Shown piece after piece: positions 607 through 61,520 of a stretch of 64,000 nucleotides of DNA. A program made the translations under genes and the position numbers. The notes beneath the pieces were generated by a model that saw only the letters and a program-made list of their open reading frames with translations, was not told where the DNA came from and made no database searches. The DNA is from Lysobacterales bacterium. GTDB taxonomy: Bacteria; Pseudomonadota; Gammaproteobacteria; Nevskiales; Salinisphaeraceae. The DNA is taken from contig PBAO01000014.1 of the NCBI GenBank assembly GCA_002715985.1, positions 62,362-126,361 of the forward strand. Reading direction: 5' to 3'. The number at the start of each line of letters is the position of its first letter. The stretch's first letter is position 1.

Positions 607-1893
607 TCAGCCCGTTGTCGCGGCATGGACCTCCGACTCGTGTAGGGCGATACGTTTACGCAGCAGATCGATATGCATGCGGGCGTTGTAGGCATAGCCG
701 CGGTAGGGGAGTGGCAGTTTCAGTGCGGCAATGTGTCGATCCAGTTCGACGAGCTCGGCCTTGAGCTTTCGGAGCGTGTCCGGATCGTCGGTGGCATCGG
801 CTTCGTTGTCGATTTCCCGAATCCGCGCGTAGTGGCGGAACACGCGGTTGCGGATACTCCATTGATACAGGCCCGGCAACGCGCGCAGGAGCGGCAGCAC
901 GAGAAAGACGATCGGCAGCAGCAGTATCGCGAAGCGGCTGATTTGTGCGGTGACCCAATACGGCACGAAACCGTTCAATGGGCTTGGCCCCTCGGCAATC
1001 AGGTCGCGAGCGTAGGCGTTCTGAGGCAGCGAGGTGTTGTCCATCGTGGGAAACTTGTCTTTCGGGGTGATGATGTCACCGGCTGCGTGGACGCGGCGCG
1101 CGGCTTCGACCAGACGATCGACGATGGCCGGGTGAAGATCGGGCTGGCCGACAATGCGGGCGACAAGGCCGAGCAGGGTGACTGGCTTCGGCGGTAGCGG
1201 GGGGTTGAGTCCGAAAGCGCCGGACGGGATATCCACGCGTATGGATTGCGGCATGCGCCGTGACAGAGCCACGGTATGGTCGAGCTGGAGCAGGGCGGTG
1301 TCGGGATCGGCGAGCACGGTCGATAGATAGGGGGCGGCCAGTGGCGCCACGAACAGCGCGATATCCACGCGGCCATCGGCCAGAGCCCGGGCCGCTTCGG
1401 CATCGCCCAGCGGTAGCAGTGTGTTGCTCTTGTCGCCCAAACCGGCGGCTTTGAAGAAAGAGGTTGCCGCGGCCCGCGTCCCCGAGCCGGGCTCCCCGGC
1501 CGCGATACGCAGACCCGACCAGCGCGCCGGATTGGCGGCCACGCCGGCGCCTTCTGTCTGATGGGCAAAGATGAGAAACGGCTCGGTGAATACCGCGCCG
1601 AGTGTTTCGATATCGCGATCCAGCGTGATGCCGCCTTGCAGTAGCCCGGCATCGGCCCGGCCGTTGGCGAGCAGGCGCGCGTTTTCGGCCGAGCCGGCAG
1701 TGGGGATGAGCTTCAGATCAATGTCGTCCTCGGCGAGAATATCGCGATACTGCTCGGCGATCTGCCAGTAGCCGCCGTCTTGAATACCGGCAGCAAAGCG
1801 CACGCTGGAAGGTGGAATGATGCCGCGGCTGAGCCACCACAGGGCGAATGCCGTGATCAACACGGCCAGAACTGTGGCTAGAATCCGAAACAT
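607..1893 (-). CDS. TAXI-family TRAP transporter solute-binding protein with C-terminal membrane segment
   Basis: ORF 607..1911 with likely start MFRILATVL at 1893 behind a GGGGAAACG RBS; FAAGIQDGGYWQIAEQYRDIL and SGLRIAAGEPGSGTR motifs; hydrophobic C-terminal stretch. Confidence 0.8.
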   Translation of the reverse strand: MFRILATVLAVLITAFALWWLSRGIIPPSSVRFAAGIQDGGYWQIAEQYRDILAEDDIDLKLIPTAGSAENARLLANGRADAGLLQGGITLDRDIETLGAVFTEPFLIFAHQTEGAGVAANPARWSGLRIAAGEPGSGTRAAATSFFKAAGLGDKSNTLLPLGDAEAARALADGRVDIALFVAPLAAPYLSTVLADPDTALLQLDHTVALSRRMPQSIRVDIPSGAFGLNPPLPPKPVTLLGLVARIVGQPDLHPAIVDRLVEAARRVHAAGDIITPKDKFPTMDNTSLPQNAYARDLIAEGPSPLNGFVPYWVTAQISRFAILLLPIVFLVLPLLRALPGLYQWSIRNRVFRHYARIREIDNEADATDDPDTLRKLKAELVELDRHIAALKLPLPYRGYAYNARMHIDLLRKRIALHESEVHAATTG

Positions 1894-7585: not shown

Positions 7586-8827
7586 ATGCGTGAACAAGAC
7601 AGCGATGTGATCATTGTCGGCGGCGGGGCCGGCGGGGCTGAACTGGCCGTGCGCCTGGCGCGTGCCGGCTGTGCCCGCGTACGGCTGATCGACCAGGCGG
7701 CCACGCATGTCTGGAAGCCGCGCCTGCACGAGTTGGCCGCCGGGGCGGCCCGCGGTGAGCTGGGCGAGATCCGTTATCGCGATCTCGCCGAGCGCTGGGG
7801 GTTCGTCTTCGAACAGGCCGCCCTTGGTGCGATCGATCCGCAGGAAAAAACCATCACGCTCGCCGCCGGCGACGCCCAGCAGCAGCGTGCCTACCGCGTG
7901 CTCGTGCTGGCGCTCGGCGGCACAACGCCCGATCTGGGCGTGGACGGCGTGACCGAGCACGCGTTCATGCTCGATCGTGCGCCGGACGCCGAGGCGTTGT
8001 ACAAGCGATTCACCCAGGCATTGGACGAGGCGGCCGTCCAGACGCCGCCCCGCCCGGCACGTGTCGTGATTGTCGGCACCGGGCTGACCGGCGTCGAGCT
8101 GGCCAGCTATCTGGCCAGCCACGCGCATGTGGTGGCCAGAGCCGATACAACGCACGCCCAGACGCTGGCGATCCATCTGGTCGAGGCCAGTGCCACGTTC
8201 ATGCCCGGCTTCGACGATGCGCCCACCCGGCGCGGCGTGCGTACGCGGCTGGAGGCGCTGGGTGTCACCGTTCATACCGGCCAGACCATTGCCCGGGTCG
8301 AGGCCGACGGTGTGGTCACCGAGCAGGGCACGCGTCTGGACAGCGATATGACGGTATGGGCTACCGGGCGCGTCGGCCCGCCGCTGGCCGTGCACGACGA
8401 ACGGCTGCCCGCGAACGACAAGCAGCAGTGGCGGGTCGGCAAGACGCTGCAGAGCGTGGCGCACGCCGATATCTTCGCGCTGGGCGATTGTTGTGCGCTC
8501 GAGGATTCGCCCTGGCCGGCCACGGCTCAAGTCGCCAGCCAGCAGGCCGAGCATCTGTCGGCCCAGATCATGGCCTACCTCGACGGCGATACGCCGGCAG
8601 CGTTCGTGTTCCGGGACAAGGGCGTGCTCATGTCGTTCGGTGCCGGTGGCGATCTGGGGCTCGTACGCGGGCCGCGTGGAGATACCCTGCGTATTCACGG
8701 GCATGTCTCGCATGCCGCGTATCGCGCTCTGGAACGCCAGCATCAATGGGTGCTGTTGGGGACGCGGGCCACCGTCGAAGGCGCGGCCGGCGATTTCTTC
8801 GATACGCTGCGTGCCCGATACGTCTGA
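7586..8827 (+). CDS. Type II NADH dehydrogenase-like FAD-dependent oxidoreductase
   Basis: GGGAGGAELAVRLAR FAD motif, VVIVGTGLTGVELASYL NAD motif, IFALGDCCALE. Confidence 0.85.
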   Translation: MREQDSDVIIVGGGAGGAELAVRLARAGCARVRLIDQAATHVWKPRLHELAAGAARGELGEIRYRDLAERWGFVFEQAALGAIDPQEKTITLAAGDAQQQRAYRVLVLALGGTTPDLGVDGVTEHAFMLDRAPDAEALYKRFTQALDEAAVQTPPRPARVVIVGTGLTGVELASYLASHAHVVARADTTHAQTLAIHLVEASATFMPGFDDAPTRRGVRTRLEALGVTVHTGQTIARVEADGVVTEQGTRLDSDMTVWATGRVGPPLAVHDERLPANDKQQWRVGKTLQSVAHADIFALGDCCALEDSPWPATAQVASQQAEHLSAQIMAYLDGDTPAAFVFRDKGVLMSFGAGGDLGLVRGPRGDTLRIHGHVSHAAYRALERQHQWVLLGTRATVEGAAGDFFDTLRARYV

Positions 8828-25130: not shown

Positions 25131-25167
25131 TCGAACCTGACTGATGGATTGTGTCGCAGGTTCGAAT
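25131..25167 (-). repeat. T-arm mirror hairpin downstream of tRNA-Arg(TCG)
   Basis: On + strand TCGAACCTG(25131..25139)...TGTCGCAGGTTCGAAT(25152..25167); latter is the exact 16-nt reverse complement of the tRNA T-arm at 25237..25252. Confidence 0.8.
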
Positions 25168-25220: not shown

Positions 25221-25297
25221 TGGTGCGCCCGGCAGGATTCGAACCTGCGACACCCGGCTTCGAAGGCCGGTGCTCTATCCAGCTGAGCTACGGGCGC
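25221..25297 (-). tRNA. tRNA-Arg (anticodon TCG)
   Basis: GCGCCCGTAGCTCAGCTGGATAGAGCACCGGCCTTCGAAGCCGGGTGTCGCAGGTTCGAATCCTGCCGGGCGCACCA folds as canonical cloverleaf with encoded CCA. Confidence 0.97.
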
Positions 25298-60922: not shown

Positions 60923-60999
60923 GTCCTCGTAGCTCAGCAGGATAGAGCAGCCGCCTCCTAAGCGGCAGGTCGCAGGTTCGACTCCTGCCGGGGACACCA
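60923..60999 (+). tRNA. tRNA-Arg (anticodon CCT)
   Basis: GTCCTCGTAGCTCAGCAGGATAGAGCAGCCGCCTCCTAAGCGGCAGGTCGCAGGTTCGACTCCTGCCGGGGACACCA; canonical cloverleaf with CCA. Confidence 0.97.
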
Positions 61000-61080
61000 T
61001 TCCATAGCATGGTCGCAGGCCGTGCTATGGAATGGTTTTCGATAGATGTCGAACCTGCGACATGGAAAATACAGGTTCGA
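60981..61080 (+). repeat. Direct repeat copy 1: last 19 nt of tRNA-Arg(CCT), palindrome, T-arm mirror hairpin
   Basis: ACTCCTGCCGGGGACACCATTCCATAGCATGGTCGCAGGCCGTGCTATGGAATGGTTTTCGATAGATGTCGAACCTGCG...ACAGGTTCGA. Confidence 0.93.
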
Positions 61081-61093
61081 CGGCGTGGCGCTA

Positions 61094-61360
61094 GGGCGTG
61101 TTGCGGTTTCATAGGCGTCCGCGCCAAGCGCTGTTTTGCGGCAAGGCGAGGCATAGCTCACGCCGCGCAGTCATTCTGCGCCACTGGGCTAGAACGCTGT
61201 ATTGCCGCAAAACAGCGTTTGGCCCGAAGGGTTGGGCCGCAAATCGTGCCCTGCAGCTTTACGAGTCTTGATCGTGGCACGCCACGATGCTTCAACTCGC
61301 GCCTTGCAGGACGCGATTTGCGGTCTCCAATGCGGACGCATATGAAACCGCAACACGTCC
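61094..61360. other. Multi-stem palindromic element between the tRNA-end direct repeats (MITE-like or structured RNA)
   Basis: Outer arms 61094..61122/61332..61360 (27/29 complementary); inner arms 61124..61144/61202..61222 (20/21) and 61237..61255/61305..61323 (17/19); small hairpins 61165..61181, 61221..61238, 61271..61288. Confidence 0.8.
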
Positions 61361-61421
61361 TCGCCACGACGAACAGTCGCGCAAGCGACTGGCCCGAAGG
61401 GTGAGGCGCGAAGCGCCGAAT

Positions 61422-61520
61422 ACTCCTGCCGGGGACACCATTCCATAGCACGGTCGCAGGCCGTGCTATGGAATGGTTTTCGATAGATGTCGAACCTGCG
61501 TCACGAAATTACAGGTTCGA
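61422..61520 (+). repeat. Direct repeat copy 2: partial tRNA-Arg 3' end, palindrome, T-arm mirror hairpin
   Basis: ACTCCTGCCGGGGACACCATTCCATAGCACGGTCGCAGGCCGTGCTATGGAATGGTTTTCGATAGATGTCGAACCTGCG...ACAGGTTCGA, 441 bp after copy 1, one substitution in first ~79 nt. Confidence 0.93.

Follow-up and report, generated by a model that had tools for sequence, protein, structure and literature searches.

tRNA-linked repeats (TLRs) were described in Escherichia coli nearly 50 years ago, in 1978, and most of them, those linked to rrn excepted, still lack a settled function. They comprise rtT in tyrT-tyrV, the argVYZQ spacers and rrA, rrB and rrF (Egan and Landy 1978; Rudd 1999, via PMC8144298). The defining feature of E. 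coli TLRs is a copied stretch of 18–19 bp (PMC8144298). The rrn TLRs, located between two terminators, arise by read-through and subsequent processing and are bound by Hfq and CsrA; RrB is the product of T1 read-through followed by processing (PMC8144298). Transcription of rtT and its processing to a small RNA have also been reported, and an early claim linking rtT to the stringent response was later withdrawn (PMC8144298). Elsewhere, RtT RNA is reported to be up-regulated at 10 °C in Thioalkalivibrio (PMC8092127) and has been detected on Northern blots in Actinobacillus (PMC4986893).

Layout of the two tRNA-Arg loci

The window analysed here (the whole stretch of 64,000 nt) contains a repeat directly after tRNA-Arg(CCT) that we assign to this class with near certainty, and related arms after tRNA-Arg(TCG). 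The features of the two loci are listed below, with coordinates in the window.

60923–60999, forward strand: host tRNA-Arg(CCT) (ARAGORN), with the 5′ half of its T-arm at 60969–60982
60981–61080, forward strand: copy 1 of a 100-bp direct repeat (95% identity to 61422–61520), comprising the tRNA from T-loop to 3′ end, terminator, mirror and forward arm
60996–61039, forward strand: terminator-like hairpin with a 19-bp stem that includes the CCA end, then TTTT (fold −34.6 kcal/mol, z −7.7)
61047–61062, forward strand: mirror M, TGTCGAACCTGCGACA, antisense to the host T-arm (exact 14-nt reverse complement)
61072–61080, forward strand: forward arm F, CAGGTTCGA, pairing partner of M (from sequence and fold)
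61081–61093, forward strand: left part of core E (start of hairpin 1), placed by alignment to the uninterrupted S. japonica unit (L074)
61094–61360, no strand assigned: MITE-like insertion with inverted ends GGRCGTGTTGCGGTTTCATA, within hairpin 1 of E and outside the unit proper, multi-copy in the genome
61361–61422, forward strand: remainder of core E, with the right arm of hairpin 1, hairpin 2, GGCCCGAAGGGTGAG, hairpin 4 and GAATA (R2 model, 43.9 bits)
61423–61440, forward strand: copied tRNA positions 59–76, CTCCTGCCGGGGACACCA, identical to 60982–60999
61422–61520, forward strand: copy 2 (terminal) of the 100-bp block, with tRNA 3′ end, terminator, mirror (61488–61503) and forward arm (61512–61520)
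25221–25297, reverse strand: host tRNA-Arg(TCG) (ARAGORN)
25131–25167, reverse strand: mirror (25167–25152) and forward arm (25139–25131) at the TCG gene, with no core E after them

The initial annotation had noted that GTCGCAGGTTCGAC, at 60969–60982, recurs after tRNA-Arg(CCT) as its exact 14-nt reverse complement at 61048–61061, 48 nt past the CCA end at 60999, and that a second arm, CAGGTTCGAC at 61072–61081, forms a hairpin with this mirror. Its strings and coordinates are exact, ARAGORN confirms the tRNAs, and the second arm is the exact complement of GTCGAACCTG. Mirror and forward arm are present at both loci, as claimed, but the mirror is only the left edge of the unit, and the layout as first drawn was incomplete: it missed the tandem copy at 61422–61520, the hairpin core E, and the MITE-like insertion that hides the repeat. 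Core E, about 75 nt long with multiple hairpins, lies between the two 100-bp copies and is split here by the 267-bp insertion; at the orthologous S. japonica locus (L074) it is uninterrupted. The insertion itself (61094–61360) has 43 BLAST matches in the genome, several of them near full length, at 73–88% identity, and no clear target duplication was seen around it.

The mirror at tRNA-Arg(CCT) is located past a strong terminator-like hairpin, which was folded together with its flanking bases. A consensus terminator scan of this region of the window gave no match because the scan needs 5 T, whereas the folded hairpin has 4 T. At the tRNA-Arg(TCG) locus there is no R2 match to core E, and the S. 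japonica counterpart carries three complete units. We infer that the tRNA-Arg(TCG) locus is best read as an array that has shrunk to zero units, leaving a mirror-only remnant.

Near-matches to the mirror number 6 in the window, compared with a mean of 0.6 in shuffled sequences, which never reach 6. A genome-wide scan, which the initial annotation had put forward as a possible refutation, pointed in the opposite direction: across the 2.37-Mb assembly it returned the exact mirror-plus-arm pattern at the two reported loci only. Covariance-model matches in the same genome at E < 0.01 all adjoin tRNAs, following Arg-CCT, TCG, CCG, ACG, TCT and Tyr genes.

Assignment to the TLR/RtT class

In an exact-pattern scan of one genome per species, the layout also appeared in Salinisphaera, Wenzhouxiangella, Sedimenticola, Ectothiorhodospiraceae, Aquisalimonas and Sinimarinibacterium, often with 2–3 units at a spacing of 175–190 bp. 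Because the units resemble the tyrT repeats of E. coli, this likeness was tested with a covariance model (R1) built from 13 units, none of them enterobacterial; R2 is a core-only model. R1 finds all four E. coli rtT copies at 42–45 bits, and also the argVYZQ spacers and the rrnB T1–T2 spacer, and R2 agrees. As a model without enterobacterial sequences recovers the rtT, argVYZQ and rrnB copies, we identify the element as a TLR (Rfam RtT, RF00391), and membership of the window element in this class appears almost certain. In the window, R2 matches the core remainder at 61361–61422 with 43.9 bits (E 5e-7) and R1 with 48.6 bits. The element lies directly 3′ of a stable RNA gene on the same strand, its 3′ 18–19 bp are identical to the 3′ end of the upstream gene (61423–61440 equals 60982–60999), and its hairpin core E is common with the E. 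coli members according to R1 and R2, which had no E. coli training sequences. The recurring element proposed initially is indeed tied to tRNA genes, but it falls in a known class and its two occurrences are not independent inventions. Independent invention at two tRNA genes is ruled out, as both loci belong to one family; they are separate arrays of that one ancient family.

R1 at E ≤ 1e-5 finds 119/369 gammaproteobacteria, and RF00391 reaches its cut-off in 24 genomes (gammaproteobacterial draw of the same size, 369, and the same settings). At this genome's tRNA-Tyr copy RF00391 scores 57.7 bits, above its cut-off, and at the window's Arg-CCT copy it scores 27.3 bits, below the gathering score of 45 bits; the Rfam RtT model covers part of the family only. 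A second class of the phylum also has E, after Ser and Gln tRNAs and tmRNA. The breadth of the family, its 58/59 junction, its tmRNA hosts and its host-tracking mirror are undescribed in the literature that we searched, which sources such as Rudd 1999 may extend, and a search for repeats downstream of tRNAs in other bacteria returned nothing relevant.

A Mycobacterium match (L051) has no tRNA at its locus and was taken as chance, and an Erythrobacter locus (L065) was set aside for its different layout. The latter shows, near 7605–7900, 114-bp tandem fragments of the tRNA-Pro T-arm region beside the intact gene. In a Gemmatimonadota MAG (L061, 179–1100) the same layout follows tRNA-Arg(CCG), with a core that R2 does not recognise; this array is either a distant relative or an analogue.

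Unit architecture

The unit consists of tRNA positions 59–76, a spacer that often holds a terminator, the T-arm mirror and GGTTCGA, and E joins it to the next copy. Unit junctions fall in the T-loop, between A58 and base 59, with E preceded by ...GGTTCGA and followed by the 18-nt copy of tRNA positions 59–76. The order within E is hairpin 1, AAC, hairpin 2, GGCCCGAAGGGTGAG, hairpin 4, and GAATA or similar. In helices 1 and 2 of E, compensatory change greatly exceeds that in the shuffled and slid controls, subject to the tool's caveat about relatedness.

Terminator-like hairpins are found in the spacers between tRNA and mirror at Arg-ACG (13/13), Arg-CCG (14/17), Gln-CTG (8/8) and Ser-GCT (6/7), compared with 13/297 shuffles. 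They are absent from Tyr (0/11) and Gln-TTG (0/9) spacers, occur in 1/11 Arg-TCT spacers, and are also lacking in most Arg-TCG spacers, so that a terminator is not a universal part of the unit. At Tyr and several Arg-TCT loci, more tRNAs lie downstream.

Mean unit identity is 0.83 within an array, 0.73 between units of the same tRNA in other species, and 0.68 between units of other tRNAs in the same genome. Identity that is highest within arrays is expected if recombination homogenises and resizes them. The number of units differs between species, and two of 14 genus genomes have almost no arrays. Change of array copy number by recombination between the direct repeats is supported and, in our judgement, reasonably likely.

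Association with host RNA genes

Within the genus, hosts comprise all five tRNA-Arg types, Tyr and both Gln types, and outside Salinisphaera they also include Ser, Lys and tmRNA. Matches without a detected tRNA lie at the edges of contigs or extracted segments, or beside decayed or E-split tRNA copies. Coordinate comparison placed 106/106 R2 matches in Salinisphaera inside R1 arrays; with no off-array R2 matches, a freely mobile E is ruled out in this genus.

Matches between the copied 3′ end and its own tRNA extend over 13–17 nt in most groups and over 10 nt in Gln-CTG, compared with 5–8 nt for other tRNAs. The mirror of Arg and Ser units is antisense to its host's T-arm and fits its own tRNA better than others. 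The inverted copy had also been said to carry the T-loop base of its own tRNA, and this generalizes: the mirror base opposite position 59 is C in 16/16 units with C59 hosts and A in 100/108 units with A59 hosts (uncorrected for shared ancestry). The C59 hosts are Arg-CCT and Arg-CCG of Salinisphaera and Arg-CCT of Wenzhouxiangella, and one G59 host mismatches at base 59 in both its units. Tyr and Gln-TTG units resemble E. coli tyrT in that their 5′ arm is instead the complement of the acceptor/T 3′ strand.

Several further loci were recorded. At L221 and L223, E follows tmRNA, confirmed by Rfam, and copies the tmRNA 3′ end; a TLR after tmRNA was not found in the literature searched. At L235 and L238, E precedes copied 3′ ends for which no Rfam family reaches its gathering score; they might mark so far unrecognised stable RNAs. 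At L231 (~1400–1580, minus strand), near a lysine riboswitch, the E core is directly followed by a sequence that resembles an ERIC repeat. In one gammaproteobacterium (G617; L222, L239–L245), E-like cores of 45–66 bits sit inside a larger interspersed repeat, with no tRNA.

Possible function and alternative explanations

The reading that we consider probable, chiefly for its identity and architecture, is a TLR/RtT array with a tandem 3′-end-plus-terminator cassette whose copy number changes by recombination. That the array works at the RNA level as such a cassette is a more tentative proposal, argued from architecture and from analogy with E. coli. Under this model, arrays would grow and shrink through recombination of the direct repeats, and zero units would leave a mirror-only remnant. 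RNA polymerase that passes the first terminator would produce a read-through RNA in which the mirror may pair with the forward arm or with the tRNA T-arm and in which E may fold; downstream of E would come a second copy of the host 3′ processing end and a second terminator. The likely outcome would be a clean end of tRNA transcription together with a small stable by-product RNA, as with E. coli rtT and RrB. The T-arm could be drawn into a 14-bp helix with the mirror, or the mirror could pair locally with the forward arm. The predicted fold of the read-through RNA has the former, a 14-bp helix that absorbs the T-arm and encloses the terminator hairpin (−80.9 kcal/mol, z −8.2), which is weak evidence because the program misfolds even the bare tRNA.

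The array could also be a DNA-level phenomenon, in which E, a small mobile or recombination element, would target T-loops, the 18-nt duplication of the tRNA 3′ end would be the footprint of a T-loop crossover like that of tRNA-targeted integration, and the mirror would belong to the recombination site. We keep this rival, although we judge it unlikely, because E sits exactly between A58 and base 59, because E splits near-complete upstream tRNA copies in the T-loop beside an intact gene (L057, 4990–5139; L122; L129), and because E-like cores are dispersed away from tRNAs in G617. However, all of the 106 core matches in Salinisphaera are in tRNA-linked arrays, the units are too short to hold an integrase gene and no linked one was seen, and the strong compensatory change in E together with the E. 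coli transcripts favours RNA, although folding of single-stranded DNA is also possible. An RNA-level alternative gives the mirror a more active role: in the read-through RNA it would capture the 5′ half of the T-arm, unfold the tRNA, and mark or block faulty transcripts. The fit of the mirror to its own tRNA, including a base 59 that follows the host (16/16 and 100/108), and the predicted loss of the T-arm to the 14-bp helix both point this way, but descent or gene conversion could also maintain the match, and the fold comes from a program that misfolds the bare tRNA. Moreover, many loci make the mirror only past a terminator, an already folded tRNA would be hard to open, and Tyr and Gln-TTG units have a different 5′ arm, which together leave this antisense role quite doubtful.

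Alternatively, the arrays might have no function and be neutral leftovers of tandem duplications at tRNA genes. Variable copy number, decaying arrays and remnants such as the window's own tRNA-Arg(TCG) locus would fit this explanation, as would the genus genomes nearly without arrays (2/14) and the withdrawn stringent-response claim for rtT (PMC8144298). Yet without selection both the hairpin pairing and the match to the host would be lost, whereas structure and host match are kept across many gammaproteobacterial genera and a second class, and we regard neutrality as improbable. In a broader RNA-level reading, TLRs would be one ancient, widespread RNA element, joined to the 3′ ends of many stable RNAs (tRNA, tmRNA, 5S) and kept complementary to its own host tRNA, so that a read-through RNA would sense or correct failed 3′-end formation of that tRNA; we consider this reading speculative and unlikely.

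The mirrored tRNA piece of this Salinisphaera-like bacterium is the visible edge of a known, poorly understood repeat class that is widespread after Arg, Ser, Gln, Tyr and tmRNA genes and whose members reproduce parts of their own host RNA to the base. The comparative set is deep: hundreds of units come from many genera of gammaproteobacteria and from another class in the phylum, and they show a junction fixed at T-loop 58/59, a hairpin core with covariation, and a mirror arm that varies with the host tRNA. Together these open function to tests by covariation and, in culturable strains, by array deletion.

Comparison with known systems

As in the att-site duplications of tRNA-integrating elements, the tRNA 3′ end is duplicated from the T-loop on. 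Unlike those duplications, the arrays have no integrase, a unit of ~185 bp, a structured conserved core, and a presence after 5S rRNA (in E. coli); the duplicated units, at 175–190 bp, are too small to contain an integrase gene. The overall layout is common with RF00391, whose model scores this genome's tRNA-Tyr copy above its cut-off but the window's tRNA-Arg copies below it (27.3 bits). Hosts here are mainly tRNA-Arg, Gln, Tyr and Ser, which differs from E. coli TLRs, and Arg and Ser units carry a 14–16-nt mirror of the host T-arm, whereas the arm is short in E. coli tyrT and argVYZQ has a 3′-strand mirror instead. With the E. coli TLRs the arrays share their position directly 3′ of a stable RNA gene, a 3′ end that copies the last 18–19 nt of that gene, tandem units, and the same hairpin core with CCCGAAGGG, and, in the case of the rrnB TLR, a placement between two terminators.
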